Virus record (IMG/VR): IMGVR_UViG_3300010367_000013
Location: 1 to 33,937 of that record
Strand: one strand, 5' to 3'
From: a virus
Length of the DNA stretch: 33,937 nucleotides
Shown: positions 3,716 through 33,394 of the stretch, in pieces
Position numbering within the stretch: position 1 is the stretch's first letter
Layout: every line of letters begins with the position of its first letter
Position numbers and translations under genes: made by a program
The notes under the pieces: model-generated
Told to the model about the DNA's origin: nothing
Database searches by the model: none
What the model saw: the letters and a program-made list of their open reading frames with translations, nothing else

Positions 3716-4380
3716 GACCGCTCCACAAGTCGGCGGGCGAACTCGCGCAGGTTCTCCGGGCTCATCACGACCACGTCGTCGCGGGTACAGCCGTCCTCGG
3801 GCTTGAAGTCGCTGACCTCGCGCGCCAGCGCCTCCCCGTCCTCGAGCGCCGAAGGGACGGCCTCGCCCGCCGGCTGCGGGGCGGCGGCCGACTCCGCAGA
3901 CGTTTGGCGACCCGCGTTGTTCCAGTCCCGCCACGTGCCGGCGTAGAGGTAACGGACGATCGTCGGAGGACCATCGGCATCACGCACGTGAGCCAGCCGC
4001 ATAGCTTGGGCCTCGTCTTCCGTTGCCAGCACGCCAAGCGGCCCATTCCGGACCAGCACACCGTCCGGAAGGGACAGCGCATAGAGGACGGTTTTAAATG
4101 GCACGGCCGTCGATAAACCTACGCCATTCCCGTCGTGAATCCATGCCGGCTTTCCATCCGATCCAGCAAATGCAACCGGCGCCAGTTTGCCGACCTGCGC
4201 CACCGCGCCCCGCGCGGCGAGGAAGCGTTCCAGTTCCTGCTCGCGTTCGCGGGCGGCTTCATCCACGCGCGCTGAAAACGACTCGTAGTCCTTGTCGGCG
4301 TGGTCAAGATGGATGTCTCGCCCCTGCAGCAGCACGTTGCGCAGGAAACTCCAGGCGCTGAACTTGCGCACGTCACCCAT
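3712..4380 (-). CDS. Phage early protein, unknown
   Basis: The 222-residue protein has an N-terminal helical part (FSARVDEAAREREQELERFL, about 35-55), a central globular region of short strands (PDGVLVRNGPLGVLATEDEAQAM, broken here only for reference to about 105-128), a disordered Ala/Pro stretch near 160-175 and a helical C-terminus. It resembles mosaic early-region proteins that share modules with their neighbours. No function is assigned. It overlaps the upstream gene by 8 bp. Confidence 0.65.
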   Translation of the reverse strand: MGDVRKFSAWSFLRNVLLQGRDIHLDHADKDYESFSARVDEAAREREQELERFLAARGAVAQVGKLAPVAFAGSDGKPAWIHDGNGVGLSTAVPFKTVLYALSLPDGVLVRNGPLGVLATEDEAQAMRLAHVRDADGPPTIVRYLYAGTWRDWNNAGRQTSAESAAAPQPAGEAVPSALEDGEALAREVSDFKPEDGCTRDDVVVMSPENLREFARRLVERS

Positions 4381-4855
4381 GGCGGCCGTCCTCCAGCGCG
4401 GCGGTGAGGGCGGCGCGGGCCTCGTCCCACACCGAATGGTTCGGGGGCAGGTCTTCGAGCTCTTGGTCGCAGCGGTCTTCCTCGTCTCGGCGGAGGCTCC
4501 AGATTGCGCGAGCAGCAGCCACGTGCATGGCGTCCGTCACCGTCACCCGCGTCGGGGCGGGGTGCGTGTAGAGCGCGCGAAACTCGACACCAGTCACCGG
4601 CGAGGTGGAGTCAATCGCCTTCGATTCGTACTCGTCGCGCGTGCAGCGACTCCAGTTCCCGCATGAGTAGCGGAATTGGTATTCCGCCGCCTCCCCCTGC
4701 GCGGACAGGGCGCGCTCGATGCGGTCGCGGAAGTCGATCAGGTGGCCGAGGTAGGTCTTGAACCCGCCGATGCTCACGTCGTGCAGCGGATTCTGTGCGA
4801 TCAGCTTGTTGATGTCCGCCAGCACCTCGGCGGCGGTCTCGGGCTTAGCGGTCAT
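4373..4855 (-). CDS. Phage early protein, unknown
   Basis: The 160-residue protein begins with a helical region (AEVLADINKLIAQN, LIDFRDRIERAL), followed by a segment with EYQFRYSCGNWSRCTRDEYE and RALYTHPAP that I recognise as a recurrent module in phage hypothetical proteins, and a helical end with RRDEEDRCDQELEDL. The function is unknown. It overlaps both neighbours by 8-11 bp. Confidence 0.65.
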   Translation of the reverse strand: MTAKPETAAEVLADINKLIAQNPLHDVSIGGFKTYLGHLIDFRDRIERALSAQGEAAEYQFRYSCGNWSRCTRDEYESKAIDSTSPVTGVEFRALYTHPAPTRVTVTDAMHVAAARAIWSLRRDEEDRCDQELEDLPPNHSVWDEARAALTAALEDGRHG

Positions 4856-7529: not shown

Positions 7530-7806
7530 GGTGTTTCCCTGGTGGTGATCGGTGAGGGTGCCCGGCTTGGGGTCCGGGCACCCTGTATGCATGCACGCCC
7601 TTTCGGCATTGGGCCTAGCCGTAACGGTCACTTCATGGCTTAACTCCGGTGATTTGCCTCGCCGCTGGCGGGTGAGGTGGACCCTGATATGTGCCAGCAC
7701 ATTTGCCGGTTACGTCTCCGGCGCGGCCCCTACGCTAGGTAGTTCCGCCGTCTGGGTTCTCCCGCCTCGACAATCACGGTGGCGGGCTACCGGCACGCTG
7801 CACGGG
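7530..7806 (-). ncRNA. Structured 277-bp gap in the early operon, possible regulatory RNA
   Basis: No frame here gives a plausible protein. Several stems are visible: GGTAG 7738-7742 with CTACC 7787-7791 enclosing CCCGCC 7761-7766 with GGCGGG 7781-7786; ATGTGC/GCACAT 7689-7702; CCTC 7657-7660 with GAGG 7674-7677, with an inner GCC/GGC; and a 10-bp stem at 7556-7583. It lies in the leftward transcript between gene blocks, directly before the exonuclease-RecT set. It could be a leader-type regulator, a processing site or a stable RNA; the call as RNA is inference. Confidence 0.35.
7556..7583 (-). promoter_or_regulatory. 10-bp perfect hairpin upstream of the recombination genes
   Basis: GGGTGCCCGG (7556-7565) and CCGGGCACCC (7574-7583) form a perfect stem with an 8-nt loop. 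It ends 27 nt before the start codon at 7529. No T-run follows on either strand, so it is not a standard terminator. As an mRNA element it could stabilise a processed 5' end or control access to the downstream ribosome site. Confidence 0.5.
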
Positions 7807-13217: not shown

Positions 13218-13819
13218 GTCGTGGCCAGAGCATCCACTACGCCCGCGCCATGAAAGTCCTCATCGGCTGCGAGGAATCCGGCGCCGTGCGCGACGCCTTC
13301 ATCCGGGGGGGGCATGACGCCATGTCCTGCGACCTGATGCCGACCCGTTCGCCGGGGCCACACTACTGCGGCGACGTGTTCGACGTGATCGACTATCCGT
13401 GGGATCTCGCCATCTTCCATCCGCCGTGCACGCACACCAGCGTCAGCGGCGCGAAGCACTTCGCGGCGAAGTGGGCGGACGGCAGGCAGGCCGCCGGCGT
13501 GTCGTTCTTCATGGCGCTCGTGCGGCGTTCCTCCCACATCCCGCGGGTCGCGCTGGAACAGCCGGTGTCGATCATCTCCAGCCTGTACCGCAAGCCGGAC
13601 CAGGTCATTCAGCCGTGGCAGTTCGGGCACGGCGAAACCAAGGCGACGTGCCTGTGGTTGCGAGGGCTGCCGCTGTTGCAGCCGACAGCCATCGTCGAGG
13701 GCCGTGAGGCGCGCGTCCATCGGATGGCGCCCGGGCCGGACCGCGCTCGAGACCGGAGCGCGACGTATCAGGGCATCGCCGATGCGATGGCTGCCCAGTG
13801 GGGAGGGCTGTTCGCATGA
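13214..13819 (+). CDS. Short cytosine-C5-methyltransferase-like protein
   Basis: The 201-residue protein has a SAM-binding-like start (MKVLIGCEESGAVRDAF, after residue 12), a motif-IV-like FHPPCTHTSVSG (68-79) with the candidate nucleophile Cys72, and VALEQP (112-117), which corresponds to the ENV motif with Glu115. A late segment GHGETKATCLWLRGLPLL resembles other phage proteins labelled DNA cytosine methyltransferase. No target-recognition domain is seen, so it is shorter than Dcm-type enzymes. It could methylate or otherwise modify pyrimidines, or bind DNA without known specificity. An internal ATG at 13250 is an alternative start. Confidence 0.65.
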   Translation: MSRGQSIHYARAMKVLIGCEESGAVRDAFIRGGHDAMSCDLMPTRSPGPHYCGDVFDVIDYPWDLAIFHPPCTHTSVSGAKHFAAKWADGRQAAGVSFFMALVRRSSHIPRVALEQPVSIISSLYRKPDQVIQPWQFGHGETKATCLWLRGLPLLQPTAIVEGREARVHRMAPGPDRARDRSATYQGIADAMAAQWGGLFA

Positions 13820-13980
13820 AGCGCCGCCGCAACCTATCGCCCCGCGACGTCTTCGACGAAGCCATGCGCGCTCCGCCGATGACCACCCGCGAGATCCGCA
13901 ACTACCGACGCGCCCAGGCTGCCGAGATGGCCCGGGCCGAAGCCAAGCGCGCCGCACAGCGCACACAGGAGACGCCGTAG
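13816..13980 (+). CDS. Small basic protein, unknown
   Basis: The 54-residue protein starts at ATG 13816 inside the preceding stop (ATGA). It is strongly basic and helical (SPRDVFDEAMRAPPMTTREI, then an Ala/Arg/Glu-rich helix). It lies between the modification genes and the initiator and could bind nucleic acid. Nothing more can be said. Confidence 0.6.
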   Translation: MKRRRNLSPRDVFDEAMRAPPMTTREIRNYRRAQAAEMARAEAKRAAQRTQETP

Positions 13981-14702
13981 TGGCCCGCATCCGAACGATC
14001 AAACCCGAGTTCCCGCAGTCCGAAAGCATGGGCCGCGTGTCCCGTGAAGCGCGGCTCCTGTTCATCCTGCTGTGGCCGATTTGCGACGACCACGGGAGGA
14101 CTCGCGCGGCCTCGCGAATGCTCGCGAGCACTCTTTTCCCCTACGACGATGATGCAAAAACCGCCATCGACGGCTGGTTGGACGAGTTGGAGGCCGAGGG
14201 ATGCATTCGCCGGTACTCGGTCGATGGGTCAGCGTACCTCGAAATTTGCAAGTGGTTGATTCATCAGAAGATCGACAAGCCGAGCAAGCCGCAATTCCCA
14301 GGATTCGACGAGGGTTCGCCTACTCCTCGCGAGGATTCGCGAACATTCGTTGTAGGAAAGGAAGGGAAGGGAAAGGAAAGGAAGGGAGAGGAGCGCGAGG
14401 AGAGGGCGACCGACGGCGGCGACGCGAAAGCCCCTCGCTCGCCATCCGGCTCGCGACTGCCCGCCGGTTGGACTCCGTCCGGTGACCTCCTCGCCTGGGC
14501 CAAGACTGAACGACCCGACGTCGACCCGACCCGGGAGCTCGCCGGCTTCCGGGACTACTGGGCCTCCGTCGCCGGGGCCAAGGGGCGCAAGGCCGACTGG
14601 GACGCGACGTTCCGGAACTGGATCCGCAAGGCCAACCCGACGCCGGGCATTCGCCTCGTCGCCAGCTCGTCGGCTCCCGCTGTCTCGAGGCCGCTCCTGT
14701 GA
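13980..14702 (+). CDS. Replication initiator, lambda O / DnaT-like
   Basis: The 240-residue protein starts at GTG 13980, which shares a base with the preceding TAG. Residues 1-100 form a winged-helix domain recognisable from phage replication proteins (RIRTIKPEF, ARLLFILLWPICDDHGR, RMLASTLFP). A charged linker (about 125-145, rich in Gly/Lys/Glu) follows. The C-terminal part (WTPSGDLLAWAKTERPDVDP ... WASVAGAKGRKADWDATFRNWIRK) resembles the DnaT C-terminal domain, which helps load DnaB. It is directly followed by the dnaB gene. The gene itself carries iteron-like repeats and a purine tract, possible origin. Confidence 0.82.
   Translation: MARIRTIKPEFPQSESMGRVSREARLLFILLWPICDDHGRTRAASRMLASTLFPYDDDAKTAIDGWLDELEAEGCIRRYSVDGSAYLEICKWLIHQKIDKPSKPQFPGFDEGSPTPREDSRTFVVGKEGKGKERKGEEREERATDGGDAKAPRSPSGSRLPAGWTPSGDLLAWAKTERPDVDPTRELAGFRDYWASVAGAKGRKADWDATFRNWIRKANPTPGIRLVASSSAPAVSRPLL
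14101..14393 (+). repeat. Iteron-like 10-bp repeats and homopurine tract, candidate phage origin
   Basis: CTCGCG starts at 14101, 14111 and 14121, and again as CTCGCGAGGA at 14326 and TTCGCGAACA at 14336, with TTCG at 14346. Period 10 is not a multiple of three, so it is not due to protein repeats. A 40-nt uninterrupted purine run (14354-14393) follows. Lambda-type phages keep their origin inside the O gene, as four iterons next to an unwinding region. The match here is in layout only. Confidence 0.45.
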
Positions 14703-16054
14703 ACGATCGCCGCTCGCTGCAGCTCCGAATCCCGCCCCAGGCGATCGAGGCCGAGCAATCCGTGCTAGGCGGCATCATGCTGGCGCCGAAAGCGCTTGAC
14801 CGCGTCTCGCTGACCGAAGCCGACTTCTACCGGCGAGACCATCAGCTCATCTTCCGCGCCATCCTCGCGCTCGCTGATGCCGGGAAGCCCTACGACGCCG
14901 TCACGCTCGCCGAGTGGTTCGAGTCGAACGGACTGGTGGAACAGGTCGCAGGTGGCGCGTACCTGATCGACCTTGCCAGCAACACGCCGTCGGCCGCGAA
15001 CATCGCCGCCTATGCGCAGATCGTGCGCGACAAGTCGATTCTTCGCCAGGCGATCGACATCGCAACCTGCCTCGTCAACGACGCCTTCCAGCCAGACGGG
15101 CGCGACAGCGACGACATCCTGGACACCGGCATCCGACAGCTCATGGCGATTGCGAAGGCCGAGTCGAAAACCGAGTACACGATGAAGCAGGCAGTGACGC
15201 TCGCGTTCGAGGACGCGCAGGATGCCTACAACCACCGCGGCACAATCCGCGGCGTCACGACCGGGATCACGCGAATCGATGCGCGACTCGGCGGATGGAA
15301 CCCCGGCGACCTGATCTTCCTCGCGGCTCGACCGTCGATGGGCAAGACCGCGCTCATGGTCAACCTCGCCGATGCCGCGTCGGGGGCAGGACACGCGGTC
15401 GGGATCATCTCCGGCGAGCAGTCCGCCATGCAGCTTGGGCAACGGTCCATCGCCGTCAACGGCGCCATCGCCGCAGAGCGCATGCGCAACGGGCAGTTCG
15501 AGGACGAGGATTGGCCACGCATGACCGAAGCGATCCGCCGTCTGAAGTCGCGCAATGTGCTGATCGACGACCGCAGTTCTCCTCGACTCGACGTCATCGC
15601 GCGCATTGCTCGCCGCTGGAAGCACGATCACGGCATGCGCGTGTTGTTCGTCGACTACCTGCAGCGCATCGAAATTCCTCGCGCTCAAAATCGAATCGAG
15701 GAAGTCAGCGAGGCCGCGCGCGGGCTCAAGACGATCGCCCGTGAACTCGACATCCCCGTCGTCTGCCTCGCCCAGGTGAAAGCCGAAGTCGACAAGCGCC
15801 CCGGCGACAAGCGCCCCAACCTCGGCGACATCGCCAACAGCGACGAGGCGACGCGAGAGGCGGATCAGATCCTATTCCTCTACCGCGACGAGGTCTACAA
15901 CCACGATTCGCCAGATCGTGGAATGGCGGAACTCAACTGCGAGAAGAACCGCCACGGCCCCACCGGTCAGTTCCGGCTGCGCTTCGACGCGCCGACCATG
16001 CGATTCATCGATCCCGACAAAGCCTACAACCCGCCTTCCATCGACGAGGAGTGA
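14699..16054 (+). CDS. dnaB: Replicative DNA helicase, DnaB family
   Basis: The 451-residue protein starts at GTG 14699, overlapping the initiator stop. The N-terminal DnaB domain begins IPPQAIEAEQSVLGGIML and spans about 5-105. The RecA-like motor follows with Walker A ARPSMGKT (210-217), a Walker-B-like VLFVDYLQRIE near 320, and the H4 region with IANSDEATREADQILFLYRDE near 380-400. It unwinds DNA at the phage replication fork as a hexamer. Having its own DnaB and a loader-like protein, the phage probably does not depend on the host helicase. Confidence 0.96.
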   Translation: MNDRRSLQLRIPPQAIEAEQSVLGGIMLAPKALDRVSLTEADFYRRDHQLIFRAILALADAGKPYDAVTLAEWFESNGLVEQVAGGAYLIDLASNTPSAANIAAYAQIVRDKSILRQAIDIATCLVNDAFQPDGRDSDDILDTGIRQLMAIAKAESKTEYTMKQAVTLAFEDAQDAYNHRGTIRGVTTGITRIDARLGGWNPGDLIFLAARPSMGKTALMVNLADAASGAGHAVGIISGEQSAMQLGQRSIAVNGAIAAERMRNGQFEDEDWPRMTEAIRRLKSRNVLIDDRSSPRLDVIARIARRWKHDHGMRVLFVDYLQRIEIPRAQNRIEEVSEAARGLKTIARELDIPVVCLAQVKAEVDKRPGDKRPNLGDIANSDEATREADQILFLYRDEVYNHDSPDRGMAELNCEKNRHGPTGQFRLRFDAPTMRFIDPDKAYNPPSIDEE

Positions 16055-16602: not shown

Positions 16603-16835
16603 GCGCGAGCCCATGGTCCTATCGCGCATCTGCCGCGGCAGCAGGTGCCGCGATGGCTCGCATGCAGGCCGAAGCCCGCGCGCAACGTGCTGGGCAAGAG
16701 GCCAACCTAGCTCACGTCGCCGGGCTTCGCTTGCGTCGAACGGCAGCCCCTGACAAGTGCGCGTGTTGCGGCTCGCGCGAGTTCCGAAGCCACAACGGGC
16801 GCAGCGTGTGCGCGTATTGCAGGAGCGGAGCATGA
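16599..16835 (+). CDS. Small zinc-ribbon protein
   Basis: The 78-residue protein starts at GTG 16599 inside the previous stop. A helical Ala/Arg-rich N-terminus is followed by a clear zinc ribbon, CACCGSREF and VCAYC, at about 53-75. Such proteins often neighbour resolvases in phage replication regions. It may bind nucleic acid or act as a transcription factor. Confidence 0.7.
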   Translation: MSASPWSYRASAAAAGAAMARMQAEARAQRAGQEANLAHVAGLRLRRTAAPDKCACCGSREFRSHNGRSVCAYCRSGA

Positions 16836-17182
16836 TCGACATCACCATCCCGATCCGCACGGTCAACCCGACGAACAACCGGCAGCACTGGCGGGTGGTG
16901 TGGCAGAGGAGCAAGAAGCAGCGCGAGGTCGTGTTCCATGCGGTGCATGGCGAATACCCGACGATGCCGGCGATCGTCACCATGACCCGCATCAGCACCG
17001 GCACGCTCGACGACGACAACCTGCGCCCCGCGCTCAAATCCATCCGCGACGGCATCGCCGATGCGTTCGGCGTGCCCGACAACGATCCGCGCATCGAATG
17101 GCGCTATGTCCAAGCGAAAGGCAAGCGCGGCGAGCATGCGGTGCGAATAAAGATCGAATCGAATGGGGGAACAGCCAAATGA
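16832..17182 (+). CDS. rusA: RusA-like Holliday-junction resolvase
   Basis: The 116-residue protein has the size and motif of RusA: TLDDDNLRPALKSIRDGIAD (59-77) with acidic residues Asp60-62, Lys69 and Asp73, and DNDPRIEW (83-90) carrying further acidic residues. RusA cleaves four-way junctions made by recombination and replication. It starts inside the previous stop. It likely works with the RecT system. Confidence 0.87.
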   Translation: MIDITIPIRTVNPTNNRQHWRVVWQRSKKQREVVFHAVHGEYPTMPAIVTMTRISTGTLDDDNLRPALKSIRDGIADAFGVPDNDPRIEWRYVQAKGKRGEHAVRIKIESNGGTAK

Positions 17183-17766
17183 CTAGTTCGCAAATCGCGC
17201 GCGCGCCTGATTCTGGCGACGTTTTCGACGCACTCATGACGCTGTGGGGCCGCGCATACGGACCTCGCACACACGACGACGAACCGAAGCGCGCCTCGCA
17301 CCCGATCGCCAGCGCGATGGAGTTCGGGATGACGCGCGACCAGTACATCGCGAGCAAGATCGTGGGGCGCGATGGCAAGGCGCGAAGGACGACGATGGCG
17401 CGCGACCTTGGGTCGTGCGGCGTGCGCGTAGTGCCGATGGCCTACTGCGATCCGGTGCGCGCCACGGACGACAGCGGACGGCATCGTGGGCTCGCGCTCG
17501 ATCCGCTGGAGACACCCGAGGTGCAGTGGCTGCAGAAGGCGTGGCTGGAGCTGCACGCGATGTTCCCGCGCCAGGCGCAAGCGGTGCAGCTCCAGTTCCA
17601 GCGGCCTGACCTGTCGACACGCGAAGCGCGCGCCGCCGTCCTCGGCATCTCCGCCAAGCAGTGGGACCACGAGCTGGACCGCGGCGTGCGGTGGATGCGG
17701 TGCGCGGATGCGATGCGGCGGGTGGTCGACCGTGCAGGGGTTGACTTCCCGGGAAATCAGGGGTAG
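17179..17766 (+). CDS. Late-gene regulator candidate (antitermination Q-like / sigma-like HTH)
   Basis: The 195-residue protein is last in the rightward early operon. Its C-terminal part (about 113-185) is a helix-turn-helix similar to sigma region 4 (VQLQFQRPDLSTREARAAVL, GISAKQWDHELDRGVRWMR), with AMFPRQAQ before it. Proteins of this kind at this position are antiterminators or activators of late transcription in other phages. A promoter followed by two terminators lies just after it, which fits a Q-like role. The sequence does not prove the mechanism. Confidence 0.65.
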   Translation: MTSSQIARAPDSGDVFDALMTLWGRAYGPRTHDDEPKRASHPIASAMEFGMTRDQYIASKIVGRDGKARRTTMARDLGSCGVRVVPMAYCDPVRATDDSGRHRGLALDPLETPEVQWLQKAWLELHAMFPRQAQAVQLQFQRPDLSTREARAAVLGISAKQWDHELDRGVRWMRCADAMRRVVDRAGVDFPGNQG

Positions 17767-17769
17767 AAA
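17741..17769 (+). promoter_or_regulatory. Late promoter candidate (pR'-like)
   Basis: TTGACT (17741-17746), 17-bp spacer, TAGAAA (17764-17769). It overlaps the end of the late-regulator gene, with a predicted start near 17776. The terminator at 17801 follows after about 25-50 nt. This is the order of the lambda Q-dependent late promoter. Confidence 0.7.
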
Positions 17770-17800
17770 GCGCGCAAGCTGCCATCAGTCCCTCTCCCAA

Positions 17801-17826
17801 AGCCCGCCCTCACCGGCGGGCTTTTT
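17801..17826 (+). terminator. Intrinsic terminator tR'1-like
   Basis: AGCCCGCC (17801-17808) pairs perfectly with GGCGGGCT (17815-17822) around a 6-nt loop, followed by a T-run (17822-17826). It ends the rightward early operon and would stop transcripts from the promoter at 17741 unless antiterminated. Confidence 0.92.
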
Positions 17827-17861
17827 CGTTCCCGTCCCCCAGCCGGTCCTCCCCGCCGGCT

Positions 17862-17904
17862 CGAAGCCCCGGCCCGCTCCCCTGCGGCCGGGGCTTCGTC
17901 TTTT
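17862..17904 (+). terminator. Second intrinsic terminator before the lysis genes
   Basis: A perfect 13-bp stem (CGAAGCCCCGGCC 17862-17874; GGCCGGGGCTTCG 17886-17898) with an 11-nt loop is followed by TCTTTT. It lies only 14 bases before the endolysin start codon at 17919. Two terminators in series before the late genes suggest tight control by antitermination. Confidence 0.85.
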
Positions 17905-17918
17905 CGGAGCCCGAACGC

Positions 17919-18389
17919 ATGACCCGTCCCGCTGGCGAGAAGGCGCGGGCCCAGATCCGCGAGTTCGAGGGTCTGCGGCTCAAGGCCTACCGCGACACAG
18001 GCGGCGTCCTCACGATCGGCTACGGGCACACCGGCGGCGTCAAGGCCGGACAGGAGATCACCCGTGAGGACGCCGAGCGCCTGCTGCGTGGCGACGTGCT
18101 GCAGGCCGAGCAGGTCGTTGCCCGGCACGTCGACGCCGGCCAACTGCAATCGCTGCCTCAGGGCGCTTACGACGCGCTCGTGGACTTGGCGTTCAACCTC
18201 GGCGACCAGGTGTTCGCGAGCCCGCGGACCAAGGCGCTGACCGGCCTGTCTCAGGCGCTGAATGCCAGCCGGCTCGACGACGTGCCGGCGCAGATGATGC
18301 GCTGGGTCTACGACAACGGCCACAAGCTCGATGGCCTCGTTCGCCGGCGCAAGGCCTGCGCGGACATGTGGCGGGAGGCGTTCCGGTGA
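17919..18389 (+). CDS. Endolysin: T4-type lysozyme (glycoside hydrolase 24)
   Basis: The 156-residue enzyme has the canonical E-8aa-D-5aa-T triad: Glu17, Asp26 and Thr32, within REFEGLRLKAYRDTGG and TIGYGHT. It hydrolyses the N-acetylmuramic acid to N-acetylglucosamine bond of peptidoglycan. There is no signal peptide or signal-anchor, so a holin is needed for release. It is the first late gene after the double terminator, with GGAG upstream. Confidence 0.96.
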   Translation: MTRPAGEKARAQIREFEGLRLKAYRDTGGVLTIGYGHTGGVKAGQEITREDAERLLRGDVLQAEQVVARHVDAGQLQSLPQGAYDALVDLAFNLGDQVFASPRTKALTGLSQALNASRLDDVPAQMMRWVYDNGHKLDGLVRRRKACADMWREAFR

Positions 18390-19363: not shown

Positions 19364-19860
19364 TCCCTGCGGCATTCCTGCGGTGGATTCCCTACATCTT
19401 GGCGGTCGTCGCGCTTTTCGGAATCGGCTACTACCAGGGGAGCCGAAATGGTGCGGCGAAGGTCTCCGAGTGCCGCGCCGACCATGCGGCCTACCTCGCC
19501 AAGGTGGCCGAGGACAACGCCACGATGGTCGCGCTGTACCGCAAGAAGGAGCAGGCGGTCGCGGAGGACTTCGCAATGATCGCCGCCGAACACCAAGACA
19601 AGCTGGCCGAGGTGACCCGTGAAGCGAAAGAGTCTGTTCTGGCTGATGTGCGCGCTGGCCGCGTCCGGGTGCGCATCGCAAGCTGTCCGAGAGTGCCCGC
19701 CGCCTCCGAAGCTGCCTCCGGTCCCTCTGTCGATCATGGCGAAGCCGTCGGCGGAGACCAAGCTGCGGACCTTGCTGCTGGAGCCATCGCCATCGGCGCC
19801 GAAGCCGACGCCCAGCTCGCAGCCTGCCAAGCGACCCTGACCGCGGAGCGCTCGAAGTGA
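19360..19860 (+). CDS. Rz-like inner-membrane spanin
   Basis: The 166-residue protein starts at GTG 19360 inside the holin-candidate stop. An N-terminal membrane anchor (about 9-27: WIPYILAVVALFGIGYYQG) is followed by a periplasmic coiled coil (about 45-90: KKEQAVAEDFAMIAAEHQDK). This is the i-spanin type that links the inner membrane to the outer-membrane lipoprotein partner during the last step of lysis. The partner is encoded inside this gene in the +1 frame. Confidence 0.85.
   Translation: MIPAAFLRWIPYILAVVALFGIGYYQGSRNGAAKVSECRADHAAYLAKVAEDNATMVALYRKKEQAVAEDFAMIAAEHQDKLAEVTREAKESVLADVRAGRVRVRIASCPRVPAASEAASGPSVDHGEAVGGDQAADLAAGAIAIGAEADAQLAACQATLTAERSK
19619..19840 (+). CDS. Rz1-like outer-membrane spanin lipoprotein, embedded in Rz
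   Basis: A 73-residue frame from GTG 19619 lies entirely within the Rz-like gene in another frame. The signal peptide MKRKSLFWLMCALAASGC ends in a lipobox with Cys18 as acylated residue. The mature part is proline-rich (CPPPPKLPPVP), typical of Rz1. An embedded Rz1 is known from lambda; here lipobox, proline content and location agree. Confidence 0.88.
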   Translation: MKRKSLFWLMCALAASGCASQAVRECPPPPKLPPVPLSIMAKPSAETKLRTLLLEPSPSAPKPTPSSQPAKRP

Positions 19861-26635: not shown

Positions 26636-27277
26636 ATGAATCAGGTGGACGTCTGTAATCTGGCGCTCAGCCGGATCGGGCATGGCGCGTCTTCGGCGAT
26701 CGTGTCCCTCGAAGACGCCTCTGAGGCGGCGCGCTGCTGCAAGCGCGTGTTCGCGTCGACCATGCAGGCCGTGCTGGAAGAGTTCAACTGGTCGTGGGCG
26801 AAGGGCGTCGTTGCGCTGTCGCAGTCGACCGAAACGGTGCCCGGCTACACCTATGTCTACGCCTACCCTGCGGACTGCCTGACGATCCGCGGCATTTCGG
26901 CAGACGGCTACAACCCGACGAGGAGCCCGCGGTACAAGGCGCCGTTCGAAGTCGTGGCCGCCAGCAACGGCGAGTCGCGCCTGATTGCGACCGACCTGCA
27001 GAACGCCGTCGCGTTCGTGACCCGCGACATCAAGACTCCGGCCTTCGCCACGAACCTTTTCTGCCAGGCGCTCGCGTGGCGCCTCGCGAAGGAACTCGCG
27101 CTGGGGTTGAAGGCAAACCCACAGATGGCCCAGTCGGCTGAACAGGAATACCTGATCGCCGTGTCGAAGGCCGTCTCGGCGAACGAGCTGGAGCAGACGC
27201 CAGACGACCCGGATGATCCAGAGGACATCCGACAGTACGCCGGCAACGCCACGACTGGGTGGAAGTCGTGGCAGTGA
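26636..27277 (+). CDS. Tail tubular protein A-like adaptor
   Basis: The 213-residue protein opens MNQVDVCNLALSRIGHGA, the signature of phage tail adaptor proteins (T7 gp11-like), followed by EASEAARCCKRVFASTMQ, YPADCLTIRGIS and FVTRDIKTPAFATNLF. It would attach below the portal and carry the nozzle protein encoded next. The following gene overlaps its end. Confidence 0.82.
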   Translation: MNQVDVCNLALSRIGHGASSAIVSLEDASEAARCCKRVFASTMQAVLEEFNWSWAKGVVALSQSTETVPGYTYVYAYPADCLTIRGISADGYNPTRSPRYKAPFEVVAASNGESRLIATDLQNAVAFVTRDIKTPAFATNLFCQALAWRLAKELALGLKANPQMAQSAEQEYLIAVSKAVSANELEQTPDDPDDPEDIRQYAGNATTGWKSWQ

Positions 27278-28416
27278 TCCTGCAGCCGTCGTTCGGCGGC
27301 GGCGAATACGACCCCGGCCTCTGGGGCCGTCAGGACCTCGGGCGCTACGGCATCAGCGGCAGACTGGTCAAGAACTGGATCGTGCGGCCGACTGGCGGGC
27401 TTGAGCGCCGTCCCGGGACTCGCTTCATTGGCGAGGTAAAGGACTCGACGAGGCCCGTACGACTCATGCGCTTCAGTATCAGCGAGACGCTGGCGTACCT
27501 CTGCGTCTTCAACGCCGGCGTTGTCCAGTTCGTCTACCGCGGCGCATTCGTCACGTCTGGCGGCGTTCGCGTTGAGGTTCCTCACACGTACCTGGATGCC
27601 GAGCTTCCTGACATCCGATTCACGCAGTCCGCGGATACGATGTTCCTCGTCCATTCCGCCCACTCTCCACGAATACTAAAGAGGACGAGCGCGACTAGTT
27701 TCGCACTCTCTGATCTCACTACGCGTGAAGGGCCATTCCGAACGATCAACTCAGACCAGGCGCTCAAGTTTGCCGCATCAGCGAAAACTGGCACTGTCAC
27801 GGTTGAGTCGAACTTCGACATCTTCACCCCGGCTCTTGTCGGATCGCTCGTCTATCTCGAGCCCGAGGCGCTCGGCATCATCAAGCCATGGGTTCAGGGG
27901 GAACGCACCCCAAGCCTGACGACCGGCTCGTACCGAAAAAGTGACGGCAAGGTCTACAAAGCGACGACGGTGTCGATTCCGAGCGGGACCGGTGCGTACT
28001 GCGAGACCGGGAATGTGCGCCCGACGCATGAGGCGGGGCGGGAGTGGGATGGTCCCGGCGATCAGCGCACCTTCGACACGATCAACTATCGGGTCGGTGT
28101 CGAGTGGGAGTATTCCCATTCCGGCTACGGCATCGTCGAAATCACTGCATATACCGATGCGCAGCATGTCACTGGAGTAGTCAGGAAGACACTGCCCGAT
28201 CAGGTGGTCGGCGGGTTCGGCACGCCTGCGAATAGCTGGACATTCAGCGGTGATGGTACGACCAAGGTGTTCTCGATCACCGGGGCGGTGAGTACGTCGA
28301 ACTGGAACTACGCGGTCAGGATCAACGGTTCGCCGGTGCAAAGCGACCCGAACTACGTACCACCGGGAGGAGGGGCCGGCAGCAATAACCCGTATGCGGA
28401 CGAGCTGCTGCCATGA
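27274..28416 (+). CDS. Tail tubular protein B-like (nozzle), N-terminal part of a split gene
   Basis: Start is GTG 27274 (GTGA overlap, GGAAG upstream); GTG 27259 is also possible. The 380-residue product begins ILQPSFGGGEYDPGLWGRQD, then RPTGGLERRPGTRFIGEV and RLMRFSISETLAYLCVFNAG, which is the N-terminal pattern of podovirus nozzle proteins, usually 700-900 residues long. The frame stops in the middle of a small tail domain (WTFSGDGTTKVFSITGA ... VRINGSPVQ). Its missing strands are at the start of the next frame, with an ATGA overlap. GC content falls within this gene. Confidence 0.85.
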   Translation: MILQPSFGGGEYDPGLWGRQDLGRYGISGRLVKNWIVRPTGGLERRPGTRFIGEVKDSTRPVRLMRFSISETLAYLCVFNAGVVQFVYRGAFVTSGGVRVEVPHTYLDAELPDIRFTQSADTMFLVHSAHSPRILKRTSATSFALSDLTTREGPFRTINSDQALKFAASAKTGTVTVESNFDIFTPALVGSLVYLEPEALGIIKPWVQGERTPSLTTGSYRKSDGKVYKATTVSIPSGTGAYCETGNVRPTHEAGREWDGPGDQRTFDTINYRVGVEWEYSHSGYGIVEITAYTDAQHVTGVVRKTLPDQVVGGFGTPANSWTFSGDGTTKVFSITGAVSTSNWNYAVRINGSPVQSDPNYVPPGGGAGSNNPYADELLP

Positions 28417-30050
28417 CGCAGGGTTGGAACATTGATGCATCGGCGGACACGATCACGTTCAACGATGCACCGCCTGTCGGGACGAGCAACATCTCCGTCA
28501 TTGAGCGCGCTACTGCGGACATCAATGCCACGTCTGTCTGGGCGCTCGGTGCATGGAACTCTGCCTACGGGTATCCGTCCACCGTCGAGTTCTACGATGA
28601 CCGCCTTGGGTTTGCGGCGACGGTCTCCCAGCCGCAAACGCTGTGGTTCTCGCGGGTTGGCGACTACACGATGTTCGGGAAGTCGACGCCGATCGCTGAT
28701 GACGATGCGTTCTCGGCCACGATGAATGCCCGACAGCTCAACAAGATCAATGCGCTCATCCCGAAGCAGGATCTCCTTGTCGCGACCACAGGCGGAATCT
28801 GGAAGGTAGGCAGCGGTAGCTCCGACGCACTGACACCGACTACCGTGAGCGCCCGGCCTCAGCCATCCGTTGGCGCGAGCGCACTGTCGCCGCTCGATGT
28901 TGGCGAGACGGCAATCTACCAGACGCATCTCGGTGGAGAGGTTCGCGATCTCGCCTACGTTTTCGAGAGCGATGGCTATGCTGGCTCTGACCTGACGGCC
29001 TTCGCTTCCCATCTCGTGAAGGGCTACAGTCTGACCGCATGGGCGTGGAACCCTGGCCCATGGTCCGCGGCTTTCGTTGCGCGCGACGATGGCGCGCTGC
29101 TGACGCTGACGTACAAGCGGGAGCATCAGGTCGTTGCCTGGGCCCGGCATGACCTGTCCGGCGACGTCATCGACTCGGAGGCCATCCCAGAGGACGGCGG
29201 ATACGGCAGCTACGTCTGCGTCGAGCGCGTGATCGGCGGCGTGACGAAACGCTACGTCGAGCGCGTCGCCGACCCGGTCTACACCGATCGCCGGCTCGAG
29301 TGCGGGGTCGACTCCGCACTCACTTACGACGGGCGCAACACCACGGCGACTACGCTCACGCTTTCAGGTGGCGCCGCCCCTGGCGACGAGGTCGTCATCA
29401 CGGCGTCGACTGGCATTTTCAGCGCCTCGAACGTCGGCGACGAGATCGTTCTCGACTACGACGGCACGCCCTGCAGGATTCGGATCCTTTCCCGCGACAG
29501 CTCCACCGTCGCGCGCGGGATCGCCTCGCGCGCGCTGGTGACGTCCGACATGACGCCGGGGACGAGCTGGGCGCTTGCCGTCGACACCCTGTCTGGAGTC
29601 AGCCATCTCGAAGGCCTCACTGTGCAGGTGGGCGGCGACGGCATGGACTTCGGGACTTACACGGTGAGCGGAGGCGCCATCACGCTCCGTCAGCCGGCCG
29701 TGATCGCGACGCTCGGCATCCCATTCGATGCGGATTTCGAGTCTCTGGATATGGCGCTCGTCGGCGGCGAGTCCGTCGCCAACCGCCGCAAGATCGTGCG
29801 CGAGGTGGGGGTGCTGCTGTACTCCACGTCGACGCTCAAGGTCAGCGGCAGCGGGTTCGCGACAATGGACGAGATCCCGGCACGCGATGTCGACACGTCG
29901 ATGTCAGTGCCTCCGGAGCTTCGTACCGAGTGGGTGAGCGTTCCCGTCGACAGCATGTGGGTCAAGAACCCGCGTATCTATCTGCGCGCCTCCGGTCCGT
30001 ATGGAGCCCGAGTGCTGGCGATTGAGCCGAAGGTCGAGTTCGGCACATGA
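28413..30050 (+). CDS. Tail tubular protein B-like (nozzle), C-terminal part of a split gene
   Basis: The 545-residue product starts at ATG 28413 in the -1 frame relative to the preceding gene. It begins with WNIDASADTITFNDAPPVGT, which completes the small beta domain cut at the end of the previous frame, and continues with EFYDDRLGFAATVSQPQTLW, SRVGDYTMFG and IPKQDLLVATTGGIWKV, typical of the nozzle centre. Either two polypeptides associate, or a frameshift joins them, or the sequence or phage has a one-base lesion. Confidence 0.85.
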   Translation: MTQGWNIDASADTITFNDAPPVGTSNISVIERATADINATSVWALGAWNSAYGYPSTVEFYDDRLGFAATVSQPQTLWFSRVGDYTMFGKSTPIADDDAFSATMNARQLNKINALIPKQDLLVATTGGIWKVGSGSSDALTPTTVSARPQPSVGASALSPLDVGETAIYQTHLGGEVRDLAYVFESDGYAGSDLTAFASHLVKGYSLTAWAWNPGPWSAAFVARDDGALLTLTYKREHQVVAWARHDLSGDVIDSEAIPEDGGYGSYVCVERVIGGVTKRYVERVADPVYTDRRLECGVDSALTYDGRNTTATTLTLSGGAAPGDEVVITASTGIFSASNVGDEIVLDYDGTPCRIRILSRDSSTVARGIASRALVTSDMTPGTSWALAVDTLSGVSHLEGLTVQVGGDGMDFGTYTVSGGAITLRQPAVIATLGIPFDADFESLDMALVGGESVANRRKIVREVGVLLYSTSTLKVSGSGFATMDEIPARDVDTSMSVPPELRTEWVSVPVDSMWVKNPRIYLRASGPYGARVLAIEPKVEFGT

Positions 30051-31069: not shown

Positions 31070-33394
31070 ATGGCTCGCATCCCGACCTACGATGCGCCGC
31101 AGGTGCAGGCGAACGTCCTGCCTGGCGTTCGTATCTCCGATGCGCCGGCCCGCAGCATCGAAGCCGCCGGCAGTGCGATCGCGCATGGTCTCGGCAACGT
31201 CGCCAACGTCTTCGGCGACGTGGCGAAGGCCGAGCAGGAGAAGTCGAACCGCGCCGCGCAGATGGAGATCGACAACCAACTGAGCGCGCTCGAGAAAGAG
31301 ACGCTGCATGACCCGACGACCGGCCTGCTGGGGACGAGCGGCAAGGACGCGATCAACGTCGTCGACAAGTTCACGCCGCAGTGGCAGGACCGGCAGTCGA
31401 AGATCATCGCCGGCGCGCCGCCGCAGATCCGCCAGTGGGCGCAGGCACAGGCGGACAACCGCCGGCAGCAGGCGACGCAGACACTCATGCGCCACTCGAT
31501 GCTGGAGGGGCACAAGTACGCGGTGTCGCAGTCCGACGCGATGCTCGCGAACGCCGAACAGGCAGCGACGCTGAACTACCTCGACCCCGCGCGCGTGGAC
31601 GAGGAGGCGGCCCGGGCGATGGTCGCGGCCGATACGCGGAACAAGCTGGATGGTGGTGACGAGGCCACTGGCGCTACGCTGCGGCAGGCGGCGTCCAGCC
31701 GCGTCTACGGCGCCGTGCTGGCGCGGAAGACTGCCGAGGACCCGCACCAGGCCGCGGTGTACCTGGAGACGATCCGCGACCGGCTGACGCCCGACGACCT
31801 GATCCGTGCCGAAAGCACGCTGCGGCCGGTGCTGACGGATGCGAACGCGGGTGCGTGGTTGGATGCGGTCATCAAGGGGCAGCCCGAAGTCGCCGGTGCG
31901 ATCCCGGCAGCCGGCGCTGCCACCTCTCTCAAGCAGGCCGAGGACATCGCCCGCGGCTCGATTGGCCGCACGATCGGGCTGGAGTCTGGCGGCAAGGCCG
32001 ATGCGCGCAACCCGAACAGCAGCGCCACCGGTGCGGCCCAGTTCATCGACAAGACGTGGATCACGGTACTGACCAGTGCCCGGCCTGATCTCGTGGCCGG
32101 CAAGTCGCGCGCCGAGATCCTCGCGATGCGCAACGATCCGGTCCTGTCCCGCCAAATGGCCGAGGCCTACGCTGTCGACAACGCGCGCGGGCTGTTCCAG
32201 TCGGGCCTGCCGGTCACGCCGCAGACGATCTACATGGCCCACCACTTCGGCCTCGGTGGCGCCCGGCTGCTGCTGCAAGCCGATCCCGGGACGAAGGTCT
32301 CGGCGGTGCTGCCGGCGAGCGTGGTATCGGCGAACCCCTACCTGCGCAACAAGACGGTCGGCGAGCTGATCGCGAACCACCAGCAGCGAGCCGGTGAGCA
32401 GGCCGGTGCGAACGTACCCCAGCCTGCGCCGGCTGGGATGGTTGCTCCCGCCCGCAACGCCGACGGCTCCGTCAACTGGGGCGAGGTCGAGAAACGAGCG
32501 ATGGAGATCCCGAACCCGCTGCTGCGCGACGCCGTGCTGTCCCGCGCCCGGTCCATGTCGGCGATCGAGAACAACGCGCGCGAGGAGGCGGACAAGCAGC
32601 GCGGGATGCGGGTGTATCAAGCGATCAACGCCGATCCGAGCATTCCCCTGGCGCGCGCCCTGTCGCCGGCCGACTACGCATCCGTCGCCGCGGCCGGGAA
32701 GTTGCCGGCGCTGGAGTCCTACCGCAAGAACATGATCGAGGGCGGCCAGCGGCAGGACGACTATGCGCTGGTCGACACCCTCTACCGCGAGGCCGCCCTG
32801 AGCCCGGCGACGTTCGGCAGGCGCGACATCGCAAGCCTCGCAGACCGCCTGTCAACGCCGACGCTCACGCGGCTGCTGGATATGCAGGAGAAGGCCAAAA
32901 AGCCGGAGGAGACGGCAGATTGGGCCACCAAAGAACAGAGGATGGAGAATCTGTTTCGCATGTCCGGCGTCGGCCATGAAAAAGATGCAGCAGGCGATGG
33001 GTCGAAGGCAAAGAACGCTACGAGGGACAAGCACCGCGGCGAGTTGCGTGTGGCGTATCAGATGGCCTTATCGGAATTCATCAAGGTCCACACACGCAAG
33101 CCAACTCCCAAGGAAGACGACGAGCTTGTCAGGCAAACAGCGCTCAACTACGCAGTCCGGCGCGACGACATGACCGGAACCACGCGCATGGATCGCAATC
33201 AGACGCGAATCGAAAGTGGCTCTCCACTTCCTTCAGAAATTCTCGCGCAGATGCAACTGACGCCAGAAGGTCGAATGCAACTTGAGCTGGATGCTGCGAT
33301 CGGCCTTTATCAGTCGCGTACCGGGAAGGTTGCAGACCAAGCGTTCATCAACACTTGGATTCGCAACTATCGTCAGGGCGGAGGAAACCAGTAA
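31070..33394 (+). CDS. Internal virion protein with lytic transglycosylase domain
   Basis: The 774-residue protein has an N-terminal helical part (about 1-280), an SLT-type transglycosylase domain (about 290-400) with catalytic Glu305 in IGLESGGKADARN, then NSSATGAAQFIDKTW and YMAHHFGLGGAR, and a long helical C-terminus (about 440-774). During infection it would open peptidoglycan and take part in the ejection tube like T7 gp16. From about 32930 to the end codon use becomes less GC-rich, suggesting a recombination junction inside the gene. Confidence 0.9.
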   Translation: MARIPTYDAPQVQANVLPGVRISDAPARSIEAAGSAIAHGLGNVANVFGDVAKAEQEKSNRAAQMEIDNQLSALEKETLHDPTTGLLGTSGKDAINVVDKFTPQWQDRQSKIIAGAPPQIRQWAQAQADNRRQQATQTLMRHSMLEGHKYAVSQSDAMLANAEQAATLNYLDPARVDEEAARAMVAADTRNKLDGGDEATGATLRQAASSRVYGAVLARKTAEDPHQAAVYLETIRDRLTPDDLIRAESTLRPVLTDANAGAWLDAVIKGQPEVAGAIPAAGAATSLKQAEDIARGSIGRTIGLESGGKADARNPNSSATGAAQFIDKTWITVLTSARPDLVAGKSRAEILAMRNDPVLSRQMAEAYAVDNARGLFQSGLPVTPQTIYMAHHFGLGGARLLLQADPGTKVSAVLPASVVSANPYLRNKTVGELIANHQQRAGEQAGANVPQPAPAGMVAPARNADGSVNWGEVEKRAMEIPNPLLRDAVLSRARSMSAIENNAREEADKQRGMRVYQAINADPSIPLARALSPADYASVAAAGKLPALESYRKNMIEGGQRQDDYALVDTLYREAALSPATFGRRDIASLADRLSTPTLTRLLDMQEKAKKPEETADWATKEQRMENLFRMSGVGHEKDAAGDGSKAKNATRDKHRGELRVAYQMALSEFIKVHTRKPTPKEDDELVRQTALNYAVRRDDMTGTTRMDRNQTRIESGSPLPSEILAQMQLTPEGRMQLELDAAIGLYQSRTGKVADQAFINTWIRNYRQGGGNQ

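Follow-up and report, generated by a model that had tools for sequence, protein, structure and literature searches.

The late-control switch of lambda comprises the Q gene, the promoter pR', the terminator tR' and the lysis genes, and its leader is about 194 nt in length. Helices H3-H6 of 21Q, the Q protein of phage 21, adopt a sigma-region-4 fold (PMC6606751), and AlpA has the fold of 21Q despite the lack of sequence similarity between the two (PMC6606751, PMC9371919). The AlpA binding element sits between the -35 and -10 elements (PMC7969949, PMC9371919). At the AlpA-controlled PA0807 promoter of P. aeruginosa, predicted terminators begin 26 and 247 bp past the start, and a terminator has been predicted at 54 for alpB (PMC7969949). 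In this study, we analyzed a site of similar layout in a virus record of 33,937 bases with a G+C content of 65% (the whole stretch is hereafter called the window). The site is probably a Q-type late-gene antitermination switch of a temperate phage, working like the Q-pR'-tR' switches of lambda and phage 21; judging from sequence, we give this reading a probability of about 0.72.

Gene order of the window

The window belongs to a temperate phage whose head and tail genes are T7-like (podovirus-type). The genes used for orientation were as follows.

405-1361: integrase (phrog_1)
13704-14699: replication initiator (Rep), upstream of DnaB
14699-16051: DnaB helicase
16832-17182, + strand: RusA-like resolvase (phrog_34, 9.9e-8), last gene ahead of the putative Q gene
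17179-17766, + strand: gene of a 195-aa putative Q-type antiterminator (phrog_35346, labelled unknown function)
17919-18389, + strand: endolysin (Phage_lysozyme, PF00959, 5.7e-35), first late gene
19619-19837: Rz-like spanin ORF (weak match)
from 19928: TerS
from 20364: TerL
from 21955: portal-like head-tail adaptor
from 24837: major head protein

The integrase and early genes lie before the site, and the endolysin, TerS, TerL, portal, capsid and tail genes follow it on the + strand, giving the order Rep-DnaB-...-RusA-[195-aa gene]-lysis-TerS-TerL, in which the ATG of the 195-aa gene overlaps the RusA stop codon. Tubular tail proteins and an internal virion protein are also encoded. Elsewhere in the window, two successive ORFs (27259-30047) correspond to the first and second parts of the phrog_376 tail protein, as though a single tail gene had been divided, and a 774-aa ORF with endolysin/transglycosylase profile matches (31070-33391) stands at the end of the virion genes, additional to the endolysin at 17919. 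A symmetric hairpin, AAAACCCCGC-TTTC-GCGGGGTTTT, is located immediately left of the integrase gene (196-219), and a perfect 11-bp inverted repeat without a T-run, AGGGTGCCCGG/CCGGGCACCCT, adjoins ORFs without PHROG match (7555-7584).

Predicted promoter and tandem terminators ahead of the endolysin gene

The following elements were located between the 195-aa gene and the endolysin gene.

17741-17746, + strand: predicted -35 element TTGACT, inside the 3' end of the 195-aa gene
17747-17763, + strand: 17-nt spacer TCCCGGGAAATCAGGGG, candidate site for a QBE/ABE analogue by analogy with 21Q and AlpA
17764-17769, + strand: predicted -10 element TAGAAA, identical to the hexamer of the homologous locus L020
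17776, + strand: presumed transcription start A, placed by its spacing to the -10 box
17799-17826, + strand: predicted intrinsic terminator T1 (tR'-like), 10-bp stem at 17799-17824 and T-run to 17826
about 17841-17861, + strand: small hairpin between T1 and T2, without a T-run
17862-17905, + strand: predicted intrinsic terminator T2, stem at 17862-17898 followed by TCTTTTC

A first-pass annotation had placed a TTGACT-N17-TAGAAA promoter over the end of a helix-turn-helix (HTH) protein gene, and both sequence reading and exact search found it at 17741-17769. The stop codon TAG of the 195-aa gene (17764-17766) forms the first three letters of the -10 box, in which the conserved T at the last position is missing. 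Such promoter pairs (TTGAC-N16-18 followed by a -10 element with at least 4 of 6 positions) occurred 9.7 times per Mb in Markov sequence with the composition of the window, or with P ~0.0006 per 60 nt.

T1 has 10 perfect pairs and a 6-nt loop (-18.8 kcal/mol, 17795-17832). The second terminator had been described as a perfect 13-bp stem just ahead of the endolysin, and this was borne out: T2 (-32.9 kcal/mol, 17850-17905) has 13 perfect pairs, a T-tract weaker than that of T1, and a stem that ends 20 nt short of the ATG of the endolysin gene (17919). For the proposed distance of about 25 nt from promoter to T1, we measured 29 nt between the -10 box and the stem, and ~23 nt with the presumed start near A17776 as the reference point. 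No strong + strand terminators other than T1 and T2 occur in the 34 kb window, and terminators of their quality occur about once per Mb in Markov sequence, against two on the + strand of the window. The promoter and terminators at 17741-17905 are more than chance. A generic promoter/terminator scanner listed neither the promoter nor T1, the former owing to the missing final T of TAGAAA and the latter owing to the scanner's own stem and tail rule. Rfam gave no match for the leader/terminator site, and a DNA search with the 226-base site returned short GC-rich or hairpin matches only.

Since T2 ends 20 nt before the ATG and only 37 nt separate T1 from T2, there is no room for a separate endolysin promoter, and therefore endolysin transcripts should cross at least T2. 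If T1 and T2 do terminate, endolysin expression would need readthrough, either from the promoter at 17741 or from farther upstream.

The 195-aa protein, its homologue and the same layout with unrelated proteins

No Pfam family matched the 195-aa protein at E<=1, including the lambda Q family PF03589 and PF06530, and no NCBIfam match was obtained; the earlier description of the protein as not an obvious relative of lambda Q agrees with this, as no Pfam antitermination family matched. The protein is matched by phrog_35346 (2.7e-16) over residues 14-175 and profile positions 6-179 of 183. Membership of PF06530 was considered and rejected: hhalign comparisons with the PF06530-matching and Cr-LKS3/Cy-LDV1 Q profiles were weak, and sigma-factor controls equalled them. 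After background and sigma-factor controls the protein was not filed there, since sigma-factor ORFs score at least as high as the 195-aa protein does against the antitermination-Q profile.

An AlphaFold2 model built from two sequences had a mean pLDDT of 48, with residues about 113-186 near 80 and residues 1-112 under 50. Residues about 103-185, a moderate-confidence part of this poor model, match sigma region 4 of solved structures with Z up to 8.6, and in the model the C-terminus looks like a sigma-region-4-like HTH, as in 21Q. The match is generic, being shared with ordinary sigma factors and not specific to Q proteins. Among the fold matches listed there was no Q structure, which is uninformative either way, and the PDB sequence matches of the protein included neither the 21Q chains nor the AlpA chain. 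A second model with the L020 sequence placed first was poor throughout, and too poor for use. From its sequence, the protein may possibly represent a new antiterminator family.

A total of 80 related IMG/VR loci were gathered via TerL for comparison. Only one homologue of the 195-aa protein was found, in L020 (phmmer 1e-14; 39% over 84 residues by BLASTP and 29% over the whole alignment), and it also matches phrog_35346 (6.7e-24). No further homologues were obtained by tblastn in phages and plasmids or by profile scans of genome contigs, and scans of viral contigs returned the L020 record only. When phrog_35346 was searched in the class of G047 (369 genomes), a single weak match (L088) was obtained; it lies in a long open frame that has a transporter-like ORF next to it and no recognisable phage genes, and was judged false. 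In addition, matches to the Lessievirus phages BcepMigl and BcepIL02 were confined to the RusA-like region. The TerS scan found no relatives, and TerL was matched in genomes at 30-35% only.

In L020, a TTGACG-N18-TAGAAA promoter (4093-4122) lies at the end of the homologue gene with the stop codon TGA within the -35 box, and T-tailed terminators at 4308-4328 and 4463-4491 stand ahead of the lysis gene, whose ATG is at 4518. The window and L020 thus agree in promoter position, in the -10 hexamer and in having two tandem terminators, whereas the leader before the first T-tailed terminator is about 180 nt in L020 and about 23 nt in the window. L020 also carries a hairpin without a T-run, GCCTCCG..CGGAGGC (4139-4165), about 20 nt past the -10 box, possibly a pause or processing structure. 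The spacers of the two loci have little in common; from these two homologues neither a conserved spacer binding element nor a clear -10-like pause element could be demonstrated, and since a single homologue was found, no binding element is derivable. Weak A2..T6 candidates were noted by eye only near +1 in the window, L020 and L093. In the window, GGGAAATCAGGGGTA (17751-17765), which overlaps the -10 box, agrees with 8 of the 10 specified positions of the AlpA motif GGGACGN5GGTA (PMC7969949); this was noticed post hoc and was not used as evidence.

The same layout was also found with proteins of other sequence. Cr-LKS3 and Cy-LDV1 share DnaB with the window (54%), Cr-LKS3 also the integrase (50%), and both have the order RusA - 'putative antitermination protein Q' - lysis genes. 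Their 139-aa Q has no detectable similarity to the window protein, and its gene end carries TTGACG-N17-TGAAAT, followed 28-29 nt on by a AAAGCCCCGC..GCGGGGCTTTTT terminator. This Q is related to the L104 protein (tblastn 5e-4 and 7e-3), which matches PF06530 at 2.5e-4, below the family's cut-off; another PF06530 member, L095, has sequence matches at 4e-8 to the 21Q chains of known structure, 6p18 and 6jnx. L032 encodes at the Q position a 178-aa ORF (4120-4656) of no known family, without detectable similarity to the window protein, whose end carries TTGACG-N17-TAGTTT with a terminator 26 nt on; by its position this ORF is another candidate antiterminator.

A scan of 850 kb for promoter and terminator pairs found 7 sites, against 0, 1 and 0 in shuffled sequence, four of them at the end of the gene in the Q position (window, L032, L092 and L093, the last two counted as one lineage with 97% identical Q). 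A promoter followed by an intrinsic terminator between the regulator and lysis genes was present in the window and recurred in L020, L032, L092 and L093. Most IMG/VR relatives by TerL did not display the pattern, and L005, L008, L065 and L067 have terminators upstream of TerL with no clear TTGAC promoter. The elements of the site, their non-random occurrence and their recurrence with homologous and non-homologous proteins were all computed here.

Reading of the site and comparison with described systems

From these features we infer promoter activity, transcript length, a binding site, a pause and antitermination. Host sigma70-RNA polymerase would initiate at the promoter that overlaps the 3' end of the 195-aa gene; as long as the 195-aa protein is missing, it would stop after about 50 nt at T1, with T2 as a backup. 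The early operon would make the 195-aa protein, a putative DNA-binding protein that by analogy probably unlocks the switch as lambda Q does: its C-terminal HTH would bind in or beside the late promoter, and the protein would load on the early elongation complex, so that T1, T2 and later terminators would be ignored and the lysis, packaging and virion genes turned on. The Q/pR'/tR' reading, first proposed from the window alone, has gained support from the gene order, from the same layout in phages with an annotated Q at this place, and from the L020 homologue.

Other explanations were weighed against the same evidence. The 195-aa protein might activate the late promoter (in the manner of RinA/ArpU, with a sigma-4-like domain bound near -35), T1 and T2 mainly ending the early transcript and being crossed by leakiness. 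The general resemblance of the C-terminal domain to sigma region 4, the equally high scores of sigma-factor ORFs against the Q profile and the non-consensus -10 box agree with this, but two strong terminators lie between promoter and endolysin, and two again in L020, so that with activation and nothing more, most transcripts would still end at them; we consider an activator rather unlikely. Terminators are ordinary at the ends of early operons, and T1 and T2 could be merely such an end beside a fortuitous promoter-like site, the late genes being served by promoters elsewhere or by N-type antitermination farther upstream. This we regard as unlikely, given the rarity of such a promoter (P ~0.0006 per 60 nt), the comparable promoter at the equivalent place in L020, L032 and Cr-LKS3/Cy-LDV1, and the lack of room for another promoter before the endolysin. 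That the discrete short transcript predicted here (about 50 nt) is a functional small regulatory RNA, with the 195-aa protein unrelated to late control, appears highly improbable in view of the absence of an Rfam match and of the different leader sequences and lengths of the homologous loci (about 23 and about 180 nt).

Under the preferred reading of a Q-type switch, we tentatively put forward, as a proposal with somewhat less than even odds, that the members of phrog_35346 are processive antiterminators forming a sequence family of their own, and that phages of this kind swap unrelated Qs on a near-constant promoter-terminator module (26-29 nt, leader about 50 nt) in several lineages. The site offers a testable function for phrog_35346, a PHROG family labelled unknown function. 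It would also extend the Q-type switches by a compact example from a GC-rich phage, a setting in which late regulators are seldom easy to identify from sequence. If unrelated proteins do serve one promoter-terminator layout, this would fit the proposal that more Q-like antiterminators unrecognisable by sequence are to be found (PMC9371919), and the layout itself would be a means of finding them.

The window shares with lambda the order of regulator gene, promoter, terminator and lysis genes; its leader is about 50 nt against about 194 nt in lambda, and two tandem terminators are present. The much shorter leader claimed by the first-pass annotation thus holds against lambda and fails as an unusual trait, since it recurs in other records and at the AlpA-controlled PA0807 promoter. 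With phage 21 (PDB 6JNX, 6P18), the window has in common an HTH protein gene, a late promoter and then a terminator, and the modelled 195-aa protein would share the C-terminal sigma-region-4-like fold of 21Q (PMC6606751). Unlike phage 21, the window spacer has no TGAGCA direct repeats, and no sequence match between 21Q and the 195-aa protein exceeded the sigma-factor controls. Residues 1-112, where a counterpart of the N-terminal nozzle ring of 21Q (RNA exit channel) would lie, have pLDDT <50 in the model. Cr-LKS3 and Cy-LDV1 agree with the window in that RusA is followed by Q, by a promoter within the end of the Q gene, by a terminator and then by the lysis genes, in the N17 spacer and in the 28-29-nt gap, and differ in their dissimilar 139-aa Q. 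The AlpA promoters (PalpB and that of PA0807) resemble the window in the short leader and in two predicted terminators before the operon, although AlpA governs a chromosomal lysis programme and the window site precedes the late genes of a phage. The short leader and tandem terminators are therefore not new: PA0807, whose predicted terminators begin at +26 and +247, is a precedent that makes the compact arrangement with two terminators one of a known kind.
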